A DNA stretch of 64,000 nucleotides, from assembly GCF_963675975.1 (NCBI RefSeq), contig NZ_OY780939.1:2728001-2792000 (forward strand). The letters run 5' to 3'. Source of the stretch: Halarcobacter sp. Lineage in GTDB: Bacteria; Campylobacterota; Campylobacteria; Campylobacterales; Arcobacteraceae. Shown one piece after another: positions 1 to 12,989 of the stretch. Below the pieces are notes generated by a model. That model worked only from the letters and a program-made list of their open reading frames with translations, searched no databases and had not been told where the DNA came from. How positions within the stretch are numbered: position 1 is the stretch's first letter; each line of letters opens with the position of its first letter. The position numbers were made by a program, and so were the translations under genes.

Positions 1-2467
1 TAGAATTACCATTTTTATCTACAAGTTGAAGAGTATGAGTAAGATCATTTCCTTCAATTTGTTCATCATTATGTATTATCTTCACATAAACACTATCTTC
101 AATTGTTGATGTAACCATTTTATTAGCATCATCTACAATAGGTGTTTCATAAGAAGTTCCTTGTGGATTAGAAATTGTTACAGTAAAGTTTTCATTCACT
201 TCTCCACTAGTGTCAATATTTGTTTTTACACTAAATATTTCACCTATATTAGCATCAGTTTTTGTATTAACATAATCATATCCAACTGTAGCGTCACTAT
301 CAGAAGTATCACTTGTAATTCCATAGGTTAAATCAACTTTTCCATCTTGAATTGATAGTGGTTTACCTTCACTATCGATAGCAACTGGAATATAATATAA
401 ATTTCCACCTTCAGAAGTAATATTTGTATTTGTAATTATAAGTTTTCCATCTGCATCTGTAATATCTTCTATTGTTGTTGTTTCTGATGGTACTGCTACA
501 AGTACAATTTTTACAGAATCAGTATCAGATTCTGTATTAGGAGTAGTATTATCATAAATTGTCGTATCAACATCTTTATAATTACCATCTTTATCTCCTA
601 TCTTAATATTTTCAAACTCACTTGTATTTTCAACATCAGTAATTTCTAAATTATATACCTCTGCATTGTCTTTGTATATATCATCGATTGTATCAACTGT
701 AAATGTATTTGATGAACTATCTACAGGAATTGTTACAGTAACAGTATCACTTTCTTTATATTCAGTATCTCCATCTTCAGTTGTATCATTAGTAAAAGTT
801 ACTGTAACATCTGTTTCTTTTGTTACAACAACAGGATTACCATCTTTATCTACAAGTTTTACTGTATAATCTGTAGTAGTATCACCCTCTTTAACACTTG
901 ATGGTCCTTCAATAATAACATATATAGTATCATCTTGGTCATATGAACCATTTGTCGGTTCATCAGGTTCTGTACTTGTATCCAGTTCATCTATTTTTGA
1001 AGGATTATCAGTAATAGTTGTAGTTACACTAGAATTACTTATAGTTGTTCTACCATATTGACTATCTTCTGCTGCTACAAAATTTGTAATTTTTACAGTA
1101 AGAACTTCTCCGTTATCTGATAAATAATCATCAAGTGCATCTATTGATACTACAGTACCTAAAGTGATAGATGTAATTTTATCTTGTGGTTTATAATCAT
1201 TTGTACCTTCCAATGCATCCACTTCTGTGTTTCTTGTAGCTGTACCATCTGAAAAAGTAAAATCAACTGTTCCCTCTTGAATATCAAGCTTAGAATTATC
1301 ATTAAAAACAGTAGTATTTGGTTTAAAAGCAAGTGCTACATAGTAAGCATTGCCACCTTCTGGAGCACTATTTACTTCAATATAATTTCCATTTGTATCT
1401 TTAAGTGGATTACCATTTTCATCAGCTGCAACAATTTTTATTATTGTTCTTGGAATAACTGGCTGTTCTGGTTCTTCTGGCTCAGGCTCAGGCTCTGGTG
1501 TTGGTTCTTCTGGTTCTTCTGGTTCTTCTGGTTCTTCTGGTTCTTCTGGTTCTTCTGGTTCTTCTGGTTCTTCTGGTTCTTCTGGCTCAGGCTCTGGTGT
1601 TGGTTCTTCTGGCTCTTCTGGTTCTGGCTCTGGTGTTGGCTCTTCTGGTTCTTCCGGCTCTTCTGGCTCAGGTTCAGGTGTTGGCTCTTCTGGCTCTGGA
1701 ACATAAGTAGGTGGTGGTGTTGGAGTAGTAGGCTCTTCTGGAGTAACTTCATCTTCTCTTAATTCTGAAGATGGTCTATCTGGAGTAGATGGAGTTGTAG
1801 GAGTCGTAGATGTTGTTTGATCAAATGGATTTGACGGATCATCATTTGTTTCAAAACTTAATCTCTCTTCTGATTCATTTTTAAACATCTCTCTATCAAT
1901 AAAAATTTGTGTTCTTGCTCTAAATGTAGCATCTCTTAAATCACTAGCAACATTTGTTGCATCTCCATCTCTTGCTTGGAATTGTGCCTCTCCTGTTGTT
2001 TCATCTTCTGCATCTTCTTCACCTTCTGATGTTTTTTCTTCTGTAACATCCTCATCTGCATTTACATTATCTTGATTTTCTCCATCAGCATTTTCAATTT
2101 CTGTTTTTAATGTTTCATCTTTAAACTCAGCATCTCTTAAATCACTTACAACATTTTCTTGAGCATTGTATTCTTCTGGATTTAAATTTAATCCCTCTCT
2201 TGTAAAATATAATTCTTCTGTACCAAATGCAGTTTCAATTAAAGAAGCATCAATTAACTGTTTTTGACCTTCACTTAATACTATTACATCATTTCCTGAT
2301 AATTCAATTTCTATTTTTGAAGAAGTTGAGTTTGAAGAATCACCATAAACAGTGTCATTCTCAAAAACTGTATCTCCAACTTTTAATACTTTTATATTTC
2401 CATTTTCATCTTTTACATGAAAAACTCCATCGGATAAACTTTTTATAATACCAGCTTTCGTTGCCAC
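1..2467 (-). CDS. LapA-like giant surface adhesin, N-terminal part (runs off left edge)
   Basis: The reading frame is open from a GTG start at 2467 (AAGGA six bases upstream) to base 1, so about 822 codons of the N-terminus are present and the rest lies outside the window. Residues 1-100 begin ATKAGIIKSLSDGVFHVKDE and resemble the retention module that parks type I-secreted adhesins in the TolC pore. Residues 100-240 are an acidic Asp/Glu-rich linker carrying two SDLRDA motifs. Residues 240-340 are a Pro-Glu hinge (PEE and PEPEPEEP units). After that come beta-rich, Thr/Asp-rich Ig-like or Calx-beta-like domains with motifs such as VDKDGNP. The type I exporter genes at 3172-9261 lie just upstream on the same strand, which supports a secreted biofilm adhesin. 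A classical TAAG-type LapG cleavage site is not seen. The family call is by architecture, not alignment. Confidence 0.85.
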   Translation of the reverse strand, partial: MATKAGIIKSLSDGVFHVKDENGNIKVLKVGDTVFENDTVYGDSSNSTSSKIEIELSGNDVIVLSEGQKQLIDASLIETAFGTEELYFTREGLNLNPEEYNAQENVVSDLRDAEFKDETLKTEIENADGENQDNVNADEDVTEEKTSEGEEDAEDETTGEAQFQARDGDATNVASDLRDATFRARTQIFIDREMFKNESEERLSFETNDDPSNPFDQTTSTTPTTPSTPDRPSSELREDEVTPEEPTTPTPPPTYVPEPEEPTPEPEPEEPEEPEEPTPEPEPEEPEEPTPEPEPEEPEEPEEPEEPEEPEEPEEPEEPEEPTPEPEPEPEEPEQPVIPRTIIKIVAADENGNPLKDTNGNYIEVNSAPEGGNAYYVALAFKPNTTVFNDNSKLDIQEGTVDFTFSDGTATRNTEVDALEGTNDYKPQDKITSITLGTVVSIDALDDYLSDNGEVLTVKITNFVAAEDSQYGRTTISNSSVTTTITDNPSKIDELDTSTEPDEPTNGSYDQDDTIYVIIEGPSSVKEGDTTTDYTVKLVDKDGNPVVVTKETDVTVTFTNDTTEDGDTEYKESDTVTVTIPVDSSSNTFTVDTIDDIYKDNAEVYNLEITDVENTSEFENIKIGDKDGNYKDVDTTIYDNTTPNTESDTDSVKIVLVAVPSETTTIEDITDADGKLIITNTNITSEGGNLYYIPVAIDSEGKPLSIQDGKVDLTYGITSDTSDSDATVGYDYVNTKTDANIGEIFSVKTNIDTSGEVNENFTVTISNPQGTSYETPIVDDANKMVTSTIEDSVYVKIIHNDEQIEGNDLTHTLQLVDKNGNS
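1502..1582. repeat. Nine tandem 9-bp units in the adhesin hinge
   Basis: Nine head-to-tail copies of TGGTTCTTC (plus strand) encode (EEP)9 in the minus-strand adhesin. Flanking DNA (1470-1700) contains longer compound units encoding PEPEPEEP and PTPEP. Each unit is three codons, so gain or loss of units would change hinge length without a frameshift. Confidence 0.95.
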
Positions 2468-2564: not shown

Positions 2565-3170
2565 TCAATTTGTAAATAAAGAAGCAAAAGATAATCTATC
2601 CTTTACATCAAGTTTTTCATATATATGTTTTATATGTGTCTTTACTGTATTTATTGAAATATTAAGCTCTTGACTTATTTTATTATTTGTATATCCTTCT
2701 TTTAAAAGAACAGCAATTTGTGTTTCTTTTGTAGTTAAAATATCAAATAAAGATTTTGTTTTTTCACTATCATTATTTTTTTGGGAATTAATCATTTCAC
2801 TCATTAGTTTTGTAGAAATATCAGGTAATAACCAAATATAATTATTTTGAAGAGCTTCAACACATGAATTTAGATATGAACTAGTCATTAAAGTATTTCC
2901 ATAGGCTTTTACACCTTTATTTAAAAACTTTTTTGCAGATAAAAGATTTGGTGTATTATCTAAAACCATTATGTCATTTTGATTTTCAATAATATTTTGA
3001 AACTTATCTTCGGATAAACTTTTAATTATAGAAGTATTTATTATAATAATACTATCACTTACACGGTTTAGGTCTTTTAAATTATCAATCATAAGTGTGG
3101 TTTCATTTATCAATTTTGACCATCTGCCAATTAATAATAAATCATCGCTAAATAAAAATATTGACTTCAT
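2565..3170 (-). CDS. CsgD/LuxR-type transcriptional regulator with degenerate receiver
   Basis: This is a 201-residue protein. The C-terminal 65 residues form a LuxR/FixJ helix-turn-helix (LTTKETQIAVLLKEGYTNNK, then NTVKTHIKHIYEKL). The N-terminal ~125 residues have the alternating beta/alpha pattern of a receiver domain, but the strand that should carry the phosphorylated Asp reads IIINTSI, with Asn/Thr there. Phosphorylation is therefore unlikely. This layout resembles E. coli CsgD, a biofilm regulator with an atypical receiver. The gene starts one base after the adaptor stop, at the end of the exporter run, and is followed by the adhesin, so I infer that it controls the adhesin. The target is unproven. 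Confidence 0.8.
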   Translation of the reverse strand: MKSIFLFSDDLLLIGRWSKLINETTLMIDNLKDLNRVSDSIIIINTSIIKSLSEDKFQNIIENQNDIMVLDNTPNLLSAKKFLNKGVKAYGNTLMTSSYLNSCVEALQNNYIWLLPDISTKLMSEMINSQKNNDSEKTKSLFDILTTKETQIAVLLKEGYTNNKISQELNISINTVKTHIKHIYEKLDVKDRLSFASLFTN

Positions 3171-3171
3171 T

Positions 3172-4551
3172 TTATCTTTCCGTAAAGGTATATTGCTTTG
3201 TTTTAAGTATTGGTTTTAAGATATAATCTAAGATTGTCTTTTTTCCTGTAATAATATCTACATCAGCTACCATTCCAGGAATTATTTTCATTTTCTTAGC
3301 ATCTTTGCCTATATAATTTTTTTCTGTCTTTATTCTCACTAGATAGTATGTTTTATCATCTTTTTCAGTAATAGTATCAGGTGATATATTTATTACTTGA
3401 CCATCTAATCCACCATAAATAGAAAAATCATAAGCAGAAAACTTTACAACAGCTTTTTGACCTTGATATATAAAGGCAATATCTGAAGGCAAAATTTTAA
3501 CTTCAATAATTAGATTATAATCTGTTGGAACAATTTCAATTAAATCTTGTGCAGGTTTAATTGCTCCTCCAATAGTATTCACATGTAAAGCTTGTACAAT
3601 ACCATTTAAAGGTGATTTAATTATTGCCCTTGATACTTGATCAATTGAAGCAACTGTATTTGCTTCTAAATCTTTTAAAGAGGTAGTTATTTCATTTAAT
3701 TTTTCTTGGGTTTTTACTTTATGTATTTCACTAGCTTCTTCTATTTTTTTCTCAATTTCTACTATTTCTGACTTTATCTTATTTACAGAATATATTACAC
3801 TTTGTAGTTTTTGTTTTGAGTCACTAAATTCTCTTTGTAATTTTAAAAAATCTACTTCTGCCCTAATCCCTTTTTTTACCATAGGTTCAGTCATTTTCAC
3901 TTCTTTTTCAATAGCTTCTACTGAAAACTTTTGGTGTTTTATTCTTTGTCTTGCATCTTTTAATTCACTCTGTTTTTGTTTTAATTGTTCTTTTAGTATT
4001 TGTATTTTTGAGTTTAATTGTTTCATATTACTTAAATATAACTCTTTTTCATTTTCTAAAAATACATTTAAATTATCATTATCTGTAGTTTCATACTCAA
4101 ACATCTCATTTGACAATTCTGCTTCTAGTCTTTTTATTTGTGCTTTTAAGTATAAAATTTTTATTTTATTTGAGCTTAAACTAGATGAAGATTTTTCATT
4201 ACTGATTTTTAATAAAACTTGATCTTTTTTTACAAAATCCCCCTCTTTTATTAAAATCTCTGAAACAACTCCACCCTCAAGATTTTGAAGAATTTGATTT
4301 TGTCCACTAGGAACTACTTTCCCTTGTCCTCTTGCTATCTCATCAATTTGAGCAAAAGATGCCCAAATTATAAAAAATAGTATAGTAACAGTAAAAGCAA
4401 CTAAAACCCAATGAAGTTTTTGAGGTCTATTATGTATTAGTGCAGAGCTTAGACTTTGCATATATTCAAGGTCATGTTTATTTAAATCTTTTTTTATTTT
4501 GGGAATATTATCATTAAAAAAAGCTTCTTTAATCTCTTTAAAACTAGCCAT
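3172..4551 (-). CDS. LapC/HlyD-type periplasmic adaptor of a type I secretion system
   Basis: This 459-residue membrane-fusion protein links the inner-membrane ABC exporter to the TolC-type channel. A short cytoplasmic tail precedes one transmembrane segment (about residues 48-66). A biotinyl-lipoyl-like hairpin half follows (QNILQNLEGG is typical, here NQILQNLEGGVVSEI), then a long coiled coil (about 120-290), the second lipoyl half (IIKSPLNGIVQAL) and a beta-barrel domain. Length and order are usual for the HlyD/LapC family. It overlaps the exporter gene by 8 bases and is one base from the LuxR-like gene, which indicates co-transcription. Confidence 0.93.
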   Translation of the reverse strand: MASFKEIKEAFFNDNIPKIKKDLNKHDLEYMQSLSSALIHNRPQKLHWVLVAFTVTILFFIIWASFAQIDEIARGQGKVVPSGQNQILQNLEGGVVSEILIKEGDFVKKDQVLLKISNEKSSSSLSSNKIKILYLKAQIKRLEAELSNEMFEYETTDNDNLNVFLENEKELYLSNMKQLNSKIQILKEQLKQKQSELKDARQRIKHQKFSVEAIEKEVKMTEPMVKKGIRAEVDFLKLQREFSDSKQKLQSVIYSVNKIKSEIVEIEKKIEEASEIHKVKTQEKLNEITTSLKDLEANTVASIDQVSRAIIKSPLNGIVQALHVNTIGGAIKPAQDLIEIVPTDYNLIIEVKILPSDIAFIYQGQKAVVKFSAYDFSIYGGLDGQVINISPDTITEKDDKTYYLVRIKTEKNYIGKDAKKMKIIPGMVADVDIITGKKTILDYILKPILKTKQYTFTER

Positions 4552-6697
4552 TAATTACCCCTAGTTTTTTTATAACATCCTCTTTTTTACCATCTAAAAC
4601 TTTTTTACCATGATTCATAACAATTATTCTTGATGTCAAATCAAGCATATTCATTTTTTGTGTAACAAGGATTAAAGTTCTATGTTCAGTACTCTTTTTT
4701 AGATTATTTAAGACTTTATTTTCTGTTGATTGATCCATGGCATTTGTAGGCTCATCAAAAAGATAAATATCTGATTCTGATATTAGTGCTCTTGCAATTC
4801 CTACACTTTGTCTTTGACCTCCAGAAAGTCCTAATCCTCTTTCTCCAATTTGCATATCGTATCCCATAGGATGTAATTTAACAAAATCATCTGTAGTACT
4901 GATTTTTGAACACTCTAATAGCCATTCATCATCAATAAATCGGTAAGAGCCTAAAATATTATTTTTTATTGTTCCTCTAAATAAATTTATATCTTGAGGT
5001 ACATATGCCATACTTTTTCTTATATCCACTGGATCAATCTGTGAGATATCAATTCCATCAATTAAAATAGAACCACTTTCAGGTTCATATAGTTTTAAAA
5101 TAAGTTTTGCAATTGTACTTTTACCAGAACCAATTTTTCCTATAAAAGCAACTTTCTCTCCTTCTTTTATAGTAAAACTAACATCATCTAGTGCATAATT
5201 TTGAGAATCTGGATATCTAAAACTTACATTCTTGAATTCTATATTTCCTTTTAATGATGGTCTTTTCACAAACTCTTTTGCAAGGGGCCGTTCTAAAGGT
5301 TTATTTACTATATCATCTAACATTTTGTATGAAGTTTTTGCATCTTCATAGTTTGAGATTAAAGCTGCAATTTGTCCCATAGGTGCAATTGCCCTACCAG
5401 ATAAAATCATAGTTGCGATTAGTCCACCCATAGTTAATTCAAAATTTTGGATTTGATAAACACCAATTACAATAATTAATACTGTATTTAATCCTGTTAA
5501 AAGTCCAGTAATAGTTGGGATAGAAGAGGATAATATTCTAGATTTTAAACTTTTATTTGCTATTTCACCAGTTGATTCTTCCCAATCATATTGAATACTA
5601 CTACTTAAGCCTTGCACTTTTATTGTTTCAATATTATGTAAAGATTCTACTAAAATACCATTTTTCTTTGCACTTGCTTCATAGGTACTTTCAATACTTT
5701 TTTGAAGAGGTTTTTTTATAATTAAAGCATATAAAACTATTAAAACAATAATTACAATTGGGACTAATACCAATACACCTGCTAAATAAAATATAACTGC
5801 TAAAAAAAGTAAAGAAAAAGGAAAGTCTATTAATACACTTAAGGTAGCGTTTGTTAAAAAAGATCTAATACTATCAAAACTTTTTAGATTATTAGAAAAA
5901 GAACCTACAGAACTTGGATGCTCTTTTAATTTTAAGTCCAATACTTTTTCAAAAATTATTGAAGACATAATAATATCACTTTTTTTACCAGCTATTTCTA
6001 AAAAATATGAACGCAAAAACTTTAATGAGGAATCTATTAAAAAAACAAAAATAATTCCTATAGTAAAGACAAGCAAAGTTTCTTGGGCATTATTTGGGAT
6101 AACCCTGTCATAAACATTCATAGTAAAAAGTGGTGTTGCTAAAACAAAAAGATTTATTAAAATTGAAGCTAAAATACAATCAAAATATATTTTTTTTGAA
6201 AAACCTAAAGTGTTCCAAAACCAGTGTTTATGATTTTTTAGATCCAATGTTTTATTTTTATTATCATCATATTCAAAAACTTTTTTAAGCATAAAAGCAA
6301 AGCCTAAATACTCTTTCTCAAGATCTTCAACTTCTACAATCTCCTCTAAAGGTTCTTCACCAGGAAAAATAATCTTTGCTTTTTTTCTATCTTCTCCAAT
6401 AAACTTTTGTAAAATACAAGAGTTATTATTTGATAAAACAAGAATCATTGGTAATTGTAACTGTAATATTTCTGAAATAGGTTTTTCTATTAATATACTT
6501 TTTAATCCTGCACGAGATGCAGCTCTTGAAAATAATGATTTCGAACTATTTTTTGGAGACAATAAGGGTTCTGTCAGATTTGCATCTAAAGGCAAACCTG
6601 ACATTAAAGATTGTGCAGAATAAGGTTTATAGAACAATCTTGTATATAATACTAAGGACTCTAATAAAGAGTCTTTTTTATAAGAATGATGTAACAA
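4544..6697 (-). CDS. LapB-type ABC exporter (permease-ATPase) of the adhesin type I secretion system
   Basis: The 717-residue protein has an N-terminal C39-peptidase-like domain (about 1-135) without an evident catalytic Cys. Such domains recognise RTX/adhesin substrates rather than cut them. A six-helix transporter domain (about 155-430) follows, then an ATPase with Walker A GKIGSGKST (about residue 519), signature LSGGQ (about 624) and Walker B IYLFDEP (about 644). The D-loop reads TNAMD, as is common in LapB-type exporters. The H-loop reads LVTQKM, with Gln where a His is nearly invariant. It lies 8 bases after the tolC-like stop and overlaps the adaptor gene. Confidence 0.93.
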   Translation of the reverse strand: MLHHSYKKDSLLESLVLYTRLFYKPYSAQSLMSGLPLDANLTEPLLSPKNSSKSLFSRAASRAGLKSILIEKPISEILQLQLPMILVLSNNNSCILQKFIGEDRKKAKIIFPGEEPLEEIVEVEDLEKEYLGFAFMLKKVFEYDDNKNKTLDLKNHKHWFWNTLGFSKKIYFDCILASILINLFVLATPLFTMNVYDRVIPNNAQETLLVFTIGIIFVFLIDSSLKFLRSYFLEIAGKKSDIIMSSIIFEKVLDLKLKEHPSSVGSFSNNLKSFDSIRSFLTNATLSVLIDFPFSLLFLAVIFYLAGVLVLVPIVIIVLIVLYALIIKKPLQKSIESTYEASAKKNGILVESLHNIETIKVQGLSSSIQYDWEESTGEIANKSLKSRILSSSIPTITGLLTGLNTVLIIVIGVYQIQNFELTMGGLIATMILSGRAIAPMGQIAALISNYEDAKTSYKMLDDIVNKPLERPLAKEFVKRPSLKGNIEFKNVSFRYPDSQNYALDDVSFTIKEGEKVAFIGKIGSGKSTIAKLILKLYEPESGSILIDGIDISQIDPVDIRKSMAYVPQDINLFRGTIKNNILGSYRFIDDEWLLECSKISTTDDFVKLHPMGYDMQIGERGLGLSGGQRQSVGIARALISESDIYLFDEPTNAMDQSTENKVLNNLKKSTEHRTLILVTQKMNMLDLTSRIIVMNHGKKVLDGKKEDVIKKLGVING

Positions 6698-6705
6698 TTT
6701 TTTTA

Positions 6706-9261
6706 CTACTTATTATTTACATTTATTAGCTCAGCTTCAATTCTTCTATTTAAAGCTCTTCCTTCTTCTGTACTATTATCAGCAATTGGCTCATCAAAAC
6801 CTTTTCCTTGAGCTTCTATTCTAGATTCTTTTACACCTTTAGAGATTAAATAACTTTTAATAGCATTTGCTCTTTGTTCAGATAAACTTTTATTATAAAC
6901 AATAGAACTATTTTCATTCTCTTTACTTGCATGCCCAGTTATCATTGTATTAAACTCTTTATTATCAATTAAAAATTTAGCAAAAGCCTCTACTTTTTCT
7001 TTTGTTTTATCTTTTATTTTTGAAGAGTTATTTTCAAATAATACTTCCAAATTTATTTTATTTGTACAACCATCTTTATCTACAGTATATCCTGATGCTG
7101 TATTTGGACATTTGTCTAATTCATTTCTAACACCATCATTATCATCATCAAGAATAATTTCTTCTTTAACTTTTGGAATATATAGTGCAATTGCTACAAC
7201 ATTATTAATATCATGTTTATCTGTTTCTAAAAATAGATTATCATAATTAACTCTTGACTGAGGAACAATTATTTTTTCACTTACATTATTATCAACCAAT
7301 AGTTTTGTAATTGTTTTTGAATAATCTAAGGCTTGATTGTAACTTGTTTCATCATCTTTCATATTTTGAGTATGACCTATTACTGTAACAGTGATATCGT
7401 CTCTTTTATATGAATTTATCTTTTCAGCTATTTGTTTTATATTGTTATTATCTATATCAAAACTATTCATATCTATAAAATCAAATCTTTTAATTAATTC
7501 AAAATCATCATACATTAAATGTTTATCAAGTTGTGTTGATTCTACATTTTTATTTGCCGCTACATTGAATTCATAATCATATAAACCTAATTTCTCATCT
7601 TTTTTTGGACTCTGAGCACTATATTTAGGAACAGGATTTAGATAAGTATTTACTTCTGGCTCAAACTTATTTTTCCCATCTGGTAAAGCACACCCTTTGT
7701 CATCTACTAATACACCAAATGTACTATTAGGACAAGCATCTTTTGTATTAGGTACTCCATCAAAATCTGAATCAGCTTCTTGTTGTACACATCCTGTAGG
7801 TTTAATATTTCCATTAGATGTTGAGTTATCACAAATATCTAAAGAATCAACAATTCCATCATTATCAATATCTAATTTTACAGGCAATTTATCTTCAACA
7901 ATTTCAAAAGGTTTTTGTGTAGGATAAATAATGTTTTCATACTCTTTTTCATCTAATACTGAACTTACTAATAATCCCATTGCATCTAAAATTCTAAATT
8001 GAGCAAAAAGTTTATCTGTTTGAGCATTAATAATTTGTGATTTAGAGTTTATTAAATCATTTTGAGCTGATAATAAATCTAATAAAGTTCTTCTTCCCAT
8101 TTCATATTCACTTTGATAACTAGCCAAAGTTTCTTCACTATATTCATAATATTTATATAGTTTTTCAAGTTGATCTGTTAACATTTCATAAGCAGACCAA
8201 GATAGTTCTAAACTCTCTATTGTTTGTCTTTTTAGATCTCTTTGAATCTCTACTTCTTTATTTATAGAACTTCTGCTTTTTTGAATATCTGCTTCATGTG
8301 CTCCACCTTTATAAAGATTCCAATTTAATGTGATATATCCTCTAGTTCTGTCATCAGGACTATCAAAACTATTTCTTTTATCTACATCATTATAAACTTG
8401 CTCTATCTCTAAATCAATTTTAGGATAGTATTTACTTTTCTTTTCTTTATAAAGACTTTGTGCACCTTTAATATTATAATTACTTACAAGAATTGAAGGA
8501 TTATTTCTAATAGCTACCATAGTTGCTCTTTCTAAGCTCTCTGGCATAGATAGATTTAGTTTTGGTAAAGAAAGCTCTGAAATATTAACTTTTCTACCTA
8601 AAAGTCTTTTAAATCTAAACCCTTTATCAATCATATTGTTTTGTTGAACAACTAAATTAGACTCTGCAAGAGCTAAAGAAGATCTAATTTTTGTCATTTC
8701 AGATTTTGTAGTTAAACCACTATTAAATAAAGATTGTACATCTTCATAAATTTTTTCATTTACTCTTACATTATCTTTTGCATTTTGCAATAACCTATAA
8801 CTTCTAATAGAATCTAAATATGAACCTACCATTTGAAATGCAATATCATTAGCATTTTCTACATAATGGTGAGCTGCTGCTAAGATTCTAGATTTTTGAT
8901 AGTCTATTTTATTTGTTGTACTAAATCCATTAAAGATATTTTGAGTTAGTTTTAAAGACTGAGTATAATGATTGTAAGTTTTATCTTCTACAGTATTTCT
9001 ATACTTATCATCATCAGTATAATCTTTATATTCACCGGCATTGTTTCTTCCAAATGAAGCTGAATAATCCAAAGAAGGAAGCCATTCAGATTTTGCAATA
9101 TTTAAATCTTGTTGTACCTCTCTTAAGTTTTTTAATCTTTCTTTAACAACTGGATTTGTGTTTAAAGCTTCTTCTATACTTTTTTCTAAAGTAAGTGCAT
9201 TTAAATTTACACCTATTAACAAAAGACCACTAGCAGCGATACTTAACAAAGGTTTTTTCAT
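6706..9261 (-). CDS. TolC-type outer-membrane channel fused to TSP3 repeats and OmpA-like domains
   Basis: The protein has 851 residues, about twice the length of an ordinary TolC/LapE. A signal peptide (about 1-22) precedes a TolC-family region to about residue 445 (helical repeats, TQNIFNGF, NWNLYKGG). At about 462-525 it has calcium-binding thrombospondin type-3-like repeats (DIDNDGIVDS, DSDFDGVPNTKDACPN). Residues ~560-690 look like a diverged OmpA-like domain (FDIDNNN, VIGHTQN). A further TSP3 unit (DDDNDGVRNELDKCPN) leads into a canonical C-terminal OmpA peptidoglycan-binding domain (LSEQRANAIKSYL, GKGFDEP, NRRIEA). I infer that the fusion anchors the adhesin pore to the cell wall. It is first in the exporter run, 8 bases before the ABC gene, behind its own candidate promoter. 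Confidence 0.93.
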   Translation of the reverse strand: MKKPLLSIAASGLLLIGVNLNALTLEKSIEEALNTNPVVKERLKNLREVQQDLNIAKSEWLPSLDYSASFGRNNAGEYKDYTDDDKYRNTVEDKTYNHYTQSLKLTQNIFNGFSTTNKIDYQKSRILAAAHHYVENANDIAFQMVGSYLDSIRSYRLLQNAKDNVRVNEKIYEDVQSLFNSGLTTKSEMTKIRSSLALAESNLVVQQNNMIDKGFRFKRLLGRKVNISELSLPKLNLSMPESLERATMVAIRNNPSILVSNYNIKGAQSLYKEKKSKYYPKIDLEIEQVYNDVDKRNSFDSPDDRTRGYITLNWNLYKGGAHEADIQKSRSSINKEVEIQRDLKRQTIESLELSWSAYEMLTDQLEKLYKYYEYSEETLASYQSEYEMGRRTLLDLLSAQNDLINSKSQIINAQTDKLFAQFRILDAMGLLVSSVLDEKEYENIIYPTQKPFEIVEDKLPVKLDIDNDGIVDSLDICDNSTSNGNIKPTGCVQQEADSDFDGVPNTKDACPNSTFGVLVDDKGCALPDGKNKFEPEVNTYLNPVPKYSAQSPKKDEKLGLYDYEFNVAANKNVESTQLDKHLMYDDFELIKRFDFIDMNSFDIDNNNIKQIAEKINSYKRDDITVTVIGHTQNMKDDETSYNQALDYSKTITKLLVDNNVSEKIIVPQSRVNYDNLFLETDKHDINNVVAIALYIPKVKEEIILDDDNDGVRNELDKCPNTASGYTVDKDGCTNKINLEVLFENNSSKIKDKTKEKVEAFAKFLIDNKEFNTMITGHASKENENSSIVYNKSLSEQRANAIKSYLISKGVKESRIEAQGKGFDEPIADNSTEEGRALNRRIEAELINVNNK

Positions 9262-9357: not shown

Positions 9358-10053
9358 TTATATTATATTTATTTTATAGCCTTCATTAAAAACATTCTGA
9401 ATTAAATCCTCTGGTATTTTTTTTCTTATTCTTCTTATGAGGTTTTTTAATGCGTTAAAACTAGCTTCTTCATTATAATCATTCCATACATGAAAAAATA
9501 TATCATCATAAGAAAAAACTTTGTTAGGATGAGAAGTTAATAGTTCTAAAAGAAGCTTTTCTTTATTTGTTAACTCAATATTTTCATTATTATATGTCAA
9601 CTCTTTTAACTCACTATTCCAAAATATATTTTCTGCTAATTGTAAAATCTTTATATTTTGAATACTATAAGTTACTATTTCATCAACAGCAGTTTTAAGT
9701 GCTTCTTTTAAATTTCTTCTATTTACTGGTTTTTCTAAATATTTTACTAATTTTAAAGATGTTGCTCTTAATAAAAACTCTTTATCCACATGAGCTGTTA
9801 AAATGATTGCTTTAGTTACAATATCATGTTCTCTTATCATTTCCAAAAGTTTTAGACCATCAATTTTTGGAATATTAATATCAATAATTAAAATTTCAGG
9901 TTTGAATTTATTATATAATTCTAAAGCTTCTTCCCCATCTTTTGCTTCAAGTACATCCTTAAAATTCATTTTTAGATATTCAACATAATTTTTTCTTAGT
10001 AACTCTTCATCTTCAATTACTAATATTTTATAAGGATATAAATTACTACTCAT
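9358..10053 (-). CDS. OmpR-family response regulator
   Basis: The protein has 231 residues. A receiver domain has the acidic pair (VIEDEE), phospho-acceptor Asp in LIIDINIPK and Lys in LEKPV. A winged-helix DNA-binding domain follows (ELTNKEKLLLELL, then LIRRIRKKIP). The frame stays open 12 codons further upstream, but the ATG at 10053 is preferred. It has a good AAGGAG, overlaps the kinase stop as ATGA, and the receiver begins right after it. The partner is almost certainly the adjacent sensor kinase. The direct repeat just downstream makes the secretion operon a plausible target. Confidence 0.93.
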   Translation of the reverse strand: MSSNLYPYKILVIEDEELLRKNYVEYLKMNFKDVLEAKDGEEALELYNKFKPEILIIDINIPKIDGLKLLEMIREHDIVTKAIILTAHVDKEFLLRATSLKLVKYLEKPVNRRNLKEALKTAVDEIVTYSIQNIKILQLAENIFWNSELKELTYNNENIELTNKEKLLLELLTSHPNKVFSYDDIFFHVWNDYNEEASFNALKNLIRRIRKKIPEDLIQNVFNEGYKINII

Positions 10054-12989
10054 CAAACTTCTCCTTTTGGTAACTTTATAATAAAACAAATTCCTAAATT
10101 ATTATTACTAGCTGTAATTGTACCATTTAAACCTTTTTCAATAATCATTTTTGAAATATATAAACCTAAACCTGTACCTTGACTCTTGTGTTTTGTTGTA
10201 AAATATGGCTCAAATATCTTCCCTAATAAATGTTCATCTACACCTTTTGCATTATCTTCAATTGAAATAATTATTTCATTTTTTATCTCTTTTACTTCTA
10301 TTGAAATTAATGGTATTTCTATTTTATTTTTTATAATTGCATCTATTGAATTATTTAATATCACCAAAAATACTTGATTTAATTCATTCATATATGAATT
10401 TATATTTAAATCTTTATCAATATTTATATCTACAGCTATTTTATGTAAAGATAATCTTCCTTTAATTATTTTAAGCGTGAGTGAAAAACTTTCATATAAG
10501 TTAAACTTCTCCTTTTTCTTATCAAGCTCAAAAAAGTTTTTAAAATCATTAATTGTGTTTGACATATATTCAGTTAATTGTTCTATTTCATAAAGTTTCT
10601 TTTCTATATTTGAATCAAAACAACCTTTTTTATCAAGTATTGCATCAAGCAATAAAACCGAAGAGTTTATTTCTGCTAGTGGTTGTCTCCACTGATGAGC
10701 AATGTTTTCAATCATTTCCCCCATTTGAGCTAATTTATTTTGCTCCATTAATGTGATTTGAAATTGTGTATTTTTTTCAATCTCTTTTTTTATCTTATCT
10801 TCTAATGAATTATTCAGTTTTTCTAATTCAATTTTTGCTTTATTTAATAAATACTCATCCTCACGCTGTTTTGTGATATCGAAACCAAAATTTATAACTT
10901 CTTCAGTTGGTAGCTCTATATTTGCCCACATTGTTGCAAGTTTATTTCCATATTTGTTTAAAGGATGCCACTCTTTATAAATTCCATCTTTTTGTTGAAA
11001 AGAATGAATTACCTTTTTTCTCATATCTGGGTTTGGATAAAAAACCTCTAAAGGGTTATCCATATTTTTTATTTCTTTAAAATCATAACCAAAAACTTTT
11101 TCACATTCTTTATTCCAGAAAACTATTTTTCCGTTTTCATCAAATTGATTTAATAATATTGGTGCAATATCAAAAAGAATTCTAAATTTTTCTTCACTTT
11201 GTCTTAGTTTTTCTTCGATTATTTTTCTATTTTTTATCTCTTTTGTTAATTTTAAATTCCAATATATAAATAATATTACAATACAAGTGAAAAATATTAA
11301 TAAATTTATAATCATTTGGTAATTTATAATTTCATTATAATTTAAATATGTCCATTTGTTTAAAATCTCATTTTTCTTTTTTGAATCAATAGAGGATAAA
11401 ACTTTTTCCATAATTTCATTTAATATTCCCTCATCATTACGAGAGGCAATACTTAGATAACATGATTCTCTTAATTGACCTGAAATTGTTAAACCCTCTG
11501 CATATTTTTTAAAAAGCTCATGATTAATCACTATAGAGGTATCTATTAAACCAAAAACTTTCCCTTTTTTAACTTTGTTCAATCCATCAATTATTGAATC
11601 AACTTCAACAAAATTTATATATGGATATTTGTTTTTTAAGATTTCAAATATTGAATAGTTTTTAACAATAGCAATTTTTTTATTTTTTACTACTTCTAAA
11701 TCATTTATAAAAGGTTTAGCTGTTTTTGTAACAATAACTAAAGGAGTAGTTATATATGGTGTTGTAAAATTTAAATATTCTTGTTTACTAGGTGTAACTT
11801 GTGCCAAAGGTAAGATATCACATTGATGTTTTTTTATTTTTTCAATACTTTCTGTCCATGTTTTAGTTGTTACTAATTCAAATGGTATCTTCAATTCATT
11901 TGAAATAATATTTATAAAATCTGCTGCTATTCCAGCATGTTTTTTATCTTTTATCATTTCTAATGGCATCCAATTTGGATCTACACACATTTTTATTTTT
12001 TGTTTATTTTTTAAATAATTTTTTTGCTCACTAGTAAGTTTCAAATTATAAGGTTCATTTACATAAACAAACTCTTTGATTGTCTCCTTACTTTGTTTAG
12101 CCATAAAATGTGATTGAGCAAAATTATCAGCAATAATTTGTAACTGTTGAATATCAATACTACCTATTGGATAAAGATTTGAAAGCATTAAATATTCTAT
12201 TTGATTTGCTTCAAACATTAATGATTCTTTTGTTTTATTCTGAGTATTATATTTATTTAAAATTAGATTTATAGTTTCTTCTTTATTCTTTAAAGCATAT
12301 TGCCACCCCTTAATAGAAGCTTTTTTAAACTTTTCTACCCTGGAATGATTATTTTTTACTTCATCTTTTGTTGTAAATAAATTTAAATCATAAAATTTTG
12401 TAGCAAATACTGCTGGATCAAATATATTATATTTTATCCCTAATTTATTTAATGTATATATTTCATTAGTTGAAAAAATACTAATAGCATCAACTTCTTT
12501 TTTTATAAACGAATCTAATACAAATTTTCTTGGCACATTTTTAAAATCATTTTTACTTATATTATATTTGTCAAGCATCGTTAAAATTGTTCTTTTATGA
12601 GTACTATCCAATAATCCCATAACTTTTTTGTTTTTTAACTCATTTAAAGTCTTTATATTTTCTTGAGTTACTAAAACCAATGGAGATTGTTTTAAAAAAT
12701 TTGCAACCATAACAATAGGTTTATTATTAAAATAATCTACAATAATTGAAGAGAAAGATAATCCATAGTCTGCATTACCAGATATAACTTCTTGAGTAAT
12801 ATCCATACCTTCTTTAAACTCAATAAAATCAACATCAAGTCCAAGTTCTTTATAATAACCTTTCTCTTTTGCGATATAAAATCCCGCAAATTCAAATTGA
12901 TGTTTCCATTGCAGTTGAAGTTTAATTTTTTCTAAATTCTCTGAAAAAAGTAATGATGAAACTATTAATAGATAAATAAGATATTTCAA
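10053..12989 (-). CDS. Sensor histidine kinase with two periplasmic binding-protein-like domains and a PAS domain
   Basis: The kinase has 978 residues. A signal peptide (about 1-17) is followed by an NMT1/THI5-like domain (about 20-230; KLQLQWKHQFEFAGFYIAKE) and then an SBP_bac_3-like domain (about 330-545; KIKMCVDPNWMPLEMI). A transmembrane helix lies at about 555-580, a PAS domain at about 605-720 and a coiled coil after it. The kinase core carries the phospho-acceptor His in IAHQWRQPL (about 762), N-box LNNSIDAI and G-box GTGLGLYISK. The binding domains suggest detection of a small periplasmic solute, identity unknown. It overlaps the response regulator as ATGA, so the two form one transcription unit. 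Confidence 0.93.
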   Translation of the reverse strand: MKYLIYLLIVSSLLFSENLEKIKLQLQWKHQFEFAGFYIAKEKGYYKELGLDVDFIEFKEGMDITQEVISGNADYGLSFSSIIVDYFNNKPIVMVANFLKQSPLVLVTQENIKTLNELKNKKVMGLLDSTHKRTILTMLDKYNISKNDFKNVPRKFVLDSFIKKEVDAISIFSTNEIYTLNKLGIKYNIFDPAVFATKFYDLNLFTTKDEVKNNHSRVEKFKKASIKGWQYALKNKEETINLILNKYNTQNKTKESLMFEANQIEYLMLSNLYPIGSIDIQQLQIIADNFAQSHFMAKQSKETIKEFVYVNEPYNLKLTSEQKNYLKNKQKIKMCVDPNWMPLEMIKDKKHAGIAADFINIISNELKIPFELVTTKTWTESIEKIKKHQCDILPLAQVTPSKQEYLNFTTPYITTPLVIVTKTAKPFINDLEVVKNKKIAIVKNYSIFEILKNKYPYINFVEVDSIIDGLNKVKKGKVFGLIDTSIVINHELFKKYAEGLTISGQLRESCYLSIASRNDEGILNEIMEKVLSSIDSKKKNEILNKWTYLNYNEIINYQMIINLLIFFTCIVILFIYWNLKLTKEIKNRKIIEEKLRQSEEKFRILFDIAPILLNQFDENGKIVFWNKECEKVFGYDFKEIKNMDNPLEVFYPNPDMRKKVIHSFQQKDGIYKEWHPLNKYGNKLATMWANIELPTEEVINFGFDITKQREDEYLLNKAKIELEKLNNSLEDKIKKEIEKNTQFQITLMEQNKLAQMGEMIENIAHQWRQPLAEINSSVLLLDAILDKKGCFDSNIEKKLYEIEQLTEYMSNTINDFKNFFELDKKKEKFNLYESFSLTLKIIKGRLSLHKIAVDINIDKDLNINSYMNELNQVFLVILNNSIDAIIKNKIEIPLISIEVKEIKNEIIISIEDNAKGVDEHLLGKIFEPYFTTKHKSQGTGLGLYISKMIIEKGLNGTITASNNNLGICFIIKLPKGEV

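Follow-up and report, generated by a model that had tools for sequence, protein, structure and literature searches.

A TolC-type channel fused to TSP3 repeats and two OmpA-like domains in a Lap-type adhesin locus of Halarcobacter, a candidate wall-tethered pore

In a Lap-type adhesin locus of Halarcobacter sp., the gene for the secretion channel encodes a single 851-residue chain, in which a complete TolC-type region is followed by two blocks of TSP3 repeats and two OmpA-like domains. This composition had been proposed in the initial annotation of the locus and was recovered by a Pfam search for OEP, TSP_3 and OmpA. We consider it probable that the channel, an equivalent of LapE, is here permanently joined to a periplasmic wall-anchoring partner. 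According to this model, three copies would assemble into a TolC-like pore, which would export the 2819-aa adhesin and then keep the N-terminal retention part of the adhesin in its lumen. Each protomer would send a flexible TSP3-containing arm from its equatorial region into the periplasm, and the two OmpA-like domains at the end of the arm, six in the whole channel, would associate with peptidoglycan, so that a pull on the adhesin would be shared by the wall and the outer membrane. LapG, which LapD would hold at high c-di-GMP, would release the adhesin by cleavage.

The window, that is, the whole stretch of DNA analyzed, comprises 64,000 nucleotides (assembly GCF_963675975.1, contig NZ_OY780939.1, positions 2,728,001 to 2,792,000), and its features are given in Table 1. 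Across the fusion gene the plus strand shows many stops, and the 851-aa frame lies on the minus strand. The Pfam profiles OEP (183 bits) and OmpA (PF00691, 92.6 bits) each matched the 851-aa ORF in two stretches and TSP_3 matched at 36.7 bits, while the NCBIfam profile type_I_sec_TolC (TIGR01844) scored 243.9 bits, above its cut-off of 225. The own-genome PF00691 match of the diverged domain, OmpA-like 1, is 29 bits. The two motifs that had been claimed for OmpA-like 2, LSEQRA and NRR, are both present.

Table 1. Features of the fusion gene and of the surrounding locus (positions in the window unless another coordinate system is given)
Feature	Position	Strand	Evidence
Fusion gene, 851 aa: LapE/TolC-type channel, TSP3, OmpA-like 1, TSP3, OmpA-like 2	6706-9261	-	ORF, Pfam, NCBIfam, AlphaFold2
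Putative signal peptide, residues 1-22 (MKKPLLSIAASGLLLIGVNLNA / LTLEKS)	9196-9261	-	Read off the sequence by eye
TolC-type channel region, residues 22-440	7942-9198	-	PF02321 twice, TIGR01844, structural match
Spacer with first TSP3 block, residues 455-559 (repeats 464-524)	7585-7899	-	DIDNDGIVD and DSDFDGVPN motifs
OmpA-like 1 (diverged), residues 575-697	7171-7539	-	Second PF00691 stretch; helix/strand order
Second TSP3 block, residues 703-734	7060-7155	-	PF02412
OmpA-like 2, residues 735-845	6727-7059	-	PF00691, structural match, residues
LssB/LapB-type ABC exporter, type I secretion	4544-6697	-	TIGR03375, 849.5 bits (cut-off 693)
HlyD/LapC-type adaptor	3172-4551	-	TIGR01843, 385 bits (cut-off 209)
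LuxR-type regulator between adaptor and adhesin genes	2565-3170	-	PF00196
Giant adhesin, N-terminal part (2819 aa in all)	2-2467	-	Runs past the window to about G000:C1:2722008 (L009:11008-19467, -)
LapG, Peptidase_C93	L009:10342-10944	-	Outside the window, after the adhesin; above Pfam cut-off
LapD, LapD_MoxY_N + GGDEF + EAL	L009:8450-10345	-	Outside the window, after the adhesin; above Pfam cut-offs

A full-chain AlphaFold2 model, built with ten orthologues, shows a TolC protomer with four strands and helices of about 69 residues, together with a C-terminal OmpA-like domain. In this model, residues 17-438 superpose on TolC structures (best Z 29.0, with E. coli TolC; 402 aligned, rmsd 4.3) and residues 723-847 on peptidoglycan-binding OmpA-like domains (Z about 15); the placement of the domains relative to one another, and with it their reach toward the wall, is of low confidence (pTM 0.46; spacer pLDDT <50 at residues 469-495 and 529-584). 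When residues 560-851 were modelled alone, the pLDDT was 84 and Z reached 15-18 against solved peptidoglycan-binding domains, with a Z of 18.5 at 1.5 Å for OmpA-like 2. The fold matches of this C-terminal half, which include the type VI secretion protein TagL and an OmpA-family protein of the Dot/Icm machinery, concern OmpA-like 2, by which the match lists were filled. OmpA-like 1 has the helix/strand order of an OmpA-like domain, modelled at high pLDDT, and deviates ahead of the last strand. The termini of TolC are periplasmic and sit at the equatorial region, and from this topology the C-terminal arms of the fusion must likewise be periplasmic.

Downstream of the fusion gene lie, all on the same strand, the genes for the ABC exporter, the HlyD-type adaptor, the LuxR-type regulator and the adhesin. 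The adhesin gene continues beyond the edge of the window and is followed there by those for LapG and LapD, in agreement with the earlier proposal that the fusion is an adhesin-associated pore. Judged by the sequences of its components, the locus thus holds the full set of Lap-type parts, and the fusion is the TolC-type channel of this system; “Lap-type” refers here to the parts, the LapA-LapG pair being putative. For this adhesin no retention module was matched directly in NCBIfam; a relative homologous to it at the N terminus scored 27.2 bits with NF033682 (retention_LapA), below the cut-off of 50, and a PDB sequence search with the adhesin N terminus returned no match. The dialanine LapG site (ETAAG), found in the adhesins of many relatives, reads TSEG here (adhesin residues about 135-155) and TAEG or TTEG in close relatives of the genus, in which LapG is nonetheless conserved; LapG may have changed its specificity or cut at a different site. 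The LuxR-type regulator occupies the same position between adaptor and adhesin in most relatives among the Campylobacterota Lap loci. In Marinomonas, the gene after that for the adaptor encodes a response regulator. Directly upstream of the fusion, a sensor kinase (NMT1/THI5-like plus SBP_bac_3; 10053-12989) and a response regulator (9358-10089) are encoded on the minus strand, a pair whose position next to the fusion is conserved within the genus and on an Arcobacter cloacae plasmid.

We then considered how often wall-binding domains accompany such channels, using 88 dereplicated Lap-type loci that had been collected in part through their similarity to the fusion protein, such that the fractions are not population frequencies. 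Within this biased set, 45 of the 88 loci have a TolC-OmpA fusion (15 of them with an additional, separate OmpA gene), 17 have a separate OmpA gene no more than 6 kb away, 6 have SPOR joined to TolC (3 of these with an OmpA gene as well), and 20 have neither. The co-occurrence of OEP and OmpA beside LapA-like adhesins, for which a survey had been proposed, is seen both as fusion and as adjacency. A chance co-location of OmpA and TolC genes was rejected for the group as sampled, the expectation in this genome being that about 3% of TolC genes have an OmpA gene this near. SPOR is a wall-binding domain unrelated to OmpA; it was detected above the Pfam cut-off at the C terminus in L102, L103 and L114 and at the N terminus in L068, and the remaining SPOR assignments were made with a profile built from these four. 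That two unrelated types of wall-binding domain, OmpA and SPOR, recur fused or adjacent to the same channel favors a tether to peptidoglycan, while the 20 loci lacking both show that such a domain is not obligatory.

The design is also found outside the Campylobacterota. In the gammaproteobacterium Oleiphilus, a TolC-Ig-OmpA protein with an Ig/cadherin-like spacer is encoded beside LapG and LapD (L193:3935-6058, plus strand), and in Marinomonas, another member of the Gammaproteobacteria, genes for TolC, an LptE-like protein, OmpA, LapG, an EAL protein, the ABC exporter and HlyD share one locus. Since the Oleiphilus fusion has an Ig-type spacer, the type of spacer varies and calcium-type TSP3 repeats are not essential to the design; stiffening of the Halarcobacter spacer by calcium is plausible from its motifs. 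A broader proposal would be that a link from channel to wall is a common requirement of Lap-type systems, supplied repeatedly by unrelated parts (OmpA fused or adjacent, SPOR at either end of TolC, TSP3 or Ig spacers), and that the anchor of the Arcobacteraceae now engages its ligand in a non-canonical way, Ser having replaced the diaminopimelate-binding Asp. We put this combined proposal forward tentatively, as less likely than not.

The residues of the OmpA-like domains complicate the tether. In Acinetobacter baumannii OmpA, D271 and R286 contact diaminopimelate, and the D271A and R286A mutants each showed the residue to be critical for binding (PMC6572160). OmpA-like 2 keeps the equivalent of R286 (Arg797) and N838-R839-R840, all of them invariant in this domain, and has Ser779 at the Asp site, so that its loop reads GHAS instead of GHTD. 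The description of this domain as canonical consequently holds for its fold, the Arg and the NRR motif, and fails for the diaminopimelate-contacting Asp. In OmpA-like 1, Gln occupies the Asp site, and neither the Arg nor the NRR motif is present. A search of the orthologue alignment A1 for a substitute acidic residue in the loop found none that is conserved. Asp is retained in the three nearest OmpA paralogues of the same genome, and the best solved relatives in the structural alignments also have Asp at the site. Among 57 canonical-type domains in fusions, 41 have Ser there and 15 have Asp; among 45 separate OmpA proteins, 4 have Ser and 41 have Asp. Because OmpA-like 2 is without this Asp, wall binding by the present protein is not to be assumed, and the case for a peptidoglycan tether, favored by the recurrent fusions, is weakened at this point; the affinity for peptidoglycan might be low, changed in kind or gone altogether. 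The ratio dN/dS is 0.10-0.35 across the TolC and OmpA regions and 0.11-0.35 in both OmpA domains, values low enough to indicate that both domains are kept by selection. In Sulfurimonas-type loci (L059, L109, L110, L122, L146-L154), a TolC-OmpA fusion, mostly with Ser, stands beside a separate two-domain OmpA gene with Asp, which suggests, from the residues, that roles are divided between the fused and the separate proteins.

These substitutions raise the possibility that peptidoglycan binding has been lost from the OmpA-like domains, which would instead serve in the periplasm as hydrophilic bulk against extraction or as the site at which LapG, the adaptor or the retention part of the adhesin docks. 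The conserved Ser at the Asp site of OmpA-like 2, the purifying selection on an OmpA-like 1 devoid of Asp and Arg, and the apparent division of roles in Sulfurimonas would all fit this explanation, as would simulations of AtaA/TpgA in which reinforcement also occurred without coupling to the wall (PMC13082670). We nevertheless regard it as rather unlikely, given that the fold is intact with Arg797 and NRR invariant, and that fused domains with the complete GHTD/R set exist in the same system (the 15 of 57 above). Moreover, the SPOR versions have no reason to share a common docking surface, and TolC already has a long periplasmic barrel, to which added bulk would bring little.

Wall binding might also serve only to position or assemble the channel, by taking the trimer through the wall mesh or by placing it at its site, with no load borne and an incidental link to the adhesin. 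Other envelope machines do place themselves with OmpA-like wall binders, TagL and the Dot/Icm protein being among the fold matches mentioned above, and a non-Lap type I system of this genome also has a TolC-SPOR fusion. On the other side, none of the other OEP proteins of this genome has an OmpA match within the same ORF, and the sampled Lap-type loci are strongly enriched in such domains, although neither observation separates placement from load. We judge placement as the sole function to be improbable. For the tethered channel that we favor, load bearing by the fusion is proposed by analogy, its simulated precedent, AtaA/TpgA, being a different adhesin.

A search of 60 relatives, then of 399 genomes of the order, found the fusion at full length in at least 20 other Arcobacteraceae genomes, several of them closed, across several genera and at 56-81% identity; it is also carried by the complete A. 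cloacae plasmid pACLO, annotated there as a TolC family protein. In the nearest unfused relatives, TolC and the same two-domain OmpA protein are encoded by adjacent genes. In the second copy of G023 and in G026, a TolC of 514-518 aa is followed by a protein of 324-325 aa, which has a separate signal peptide and is arranged as OmpA1-TSP3-OmpA2, and in the G023 pair the two genes overlap at stop and start (TAATG). The mature N terminus of the split OmpA protein (YD..YLV...DK[QH]LMY) aligns with fusion residues about 560-585, and the split TolC relatives retain the first TSP3 repeat as a tail. A tree of the ABC exporters groups the 16 fused loci of the family in one clade (SH-aLRT 100), with the split pair as sister (98), and over all 57 rows implies at least six changes between fused and not fused, a count that is undirected and comes from a quick tree with long branches. 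Since split genes exist in relatives, one might suspect that two genes were erroneously joined during assembly or annotation, the objection foreseen in the initial annotation. This is made practically untenable by the 20 or more further genomes with the same fusion, several of them closed, by the complete plasmid, by the low dN/dS over both regions, and by a TSP3 spacer at the position of the signal peptide, which rules out simple read-through. Judged from the sequence, production of a free OmpA half from an internal start is unlikely as well, as no signal peptide precedes it.

Both the parts and the system are known already. As in the Lap system of Pseudomonas fluorescens (LapA/LapE/LapB/LapC/LapG/LapD), the locus combines a giant adhesin, an LssB-type ABC exporter, HlyD, a TolC-type channel, a C93 protease and a LapD receptor; it differs in that TSP3 repeats and two OmpA-like domains extend the channel protein, that a LuxR-type regulator gene separates adaptor and adhesin, and that the adhesin of this genus lacks the TAAG LapG site. 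The bpf cluster of Shewanella oneidensis likewise contains a channel (the TolC-like AggA), an adaptor, an ABC exporter, LapG and LapD homologues, and an OmpA-family protein, SO4321, whose deletion affects the biofilm and whose role was stated as not known (PMC4523816). SO4321 is the product of a separate gene, whereas here the OmpA-like part forms one chain with the channel, and this comparison suggests that SO4321 acts at the channel. In Acinetobacter sp. Tol 5, the wall-binding partner TpgA roughly doubled the force needed to extract the giant adhesin AtaA in simulation (PMC13082670), an instance of a periplasmic wall binder reinforcing an outer-membrane anchor; AtaA is a trimeric autotransporter of type V whose partner is encoded separately, in contrast to the type I channel described here.

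The C-terminal TSP3-OmpA module resembles that of OprF/OmpA-type proteins. The N-terminal part of OprF-type proteins is a small barrel, in place of which the fusion has a TolC channel. An OmpA-family paralogue of the same genome (C1:1415265), which keeps the Asp, matches fusion residues 704-845 at 41%. What appears to be new is the TolC-TSP3-OmpA-TSP3-OmpA channel together with the parallel SPOR fusions; we found no description of either in a search of mostly open-access literature, a scope that makes the absence a weak one. These proteins bear on the question of how a giant adhesin that plugs its pore avoids being extracted together with that pore, and the occurrence in two phyla of natural fusions into one chain, with SPOR fusions as a parallel, points to an anchor that acts between the wall and the pore.

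Further type I and LapG-type genes were noted in the same genome. The non-Lap type I locus mentioned above encodes a 1228-aa TolC with a C-terminal SPOR domain (L011:7320-11006, plus strand; C1 about 2057320-2061006), along with a C39-type ABC exporter, HlyD and, after TolC-SPOR, a GGDEF-EAL protein. A third type I locus (L013:1192-8612, minus strand) comprises a 591-aa TolC, a C39-type ABC exporter and HlyD, and continues with a protein in which ankyrin repeats are combined with an OmpA domain (GHTS) at the C terminus, then a WG-repeat protein. Four C93 (LapG-type) protease genes are present (G000:C1 194302, 1512265, 1512909 and 2721465), two of them side by side.
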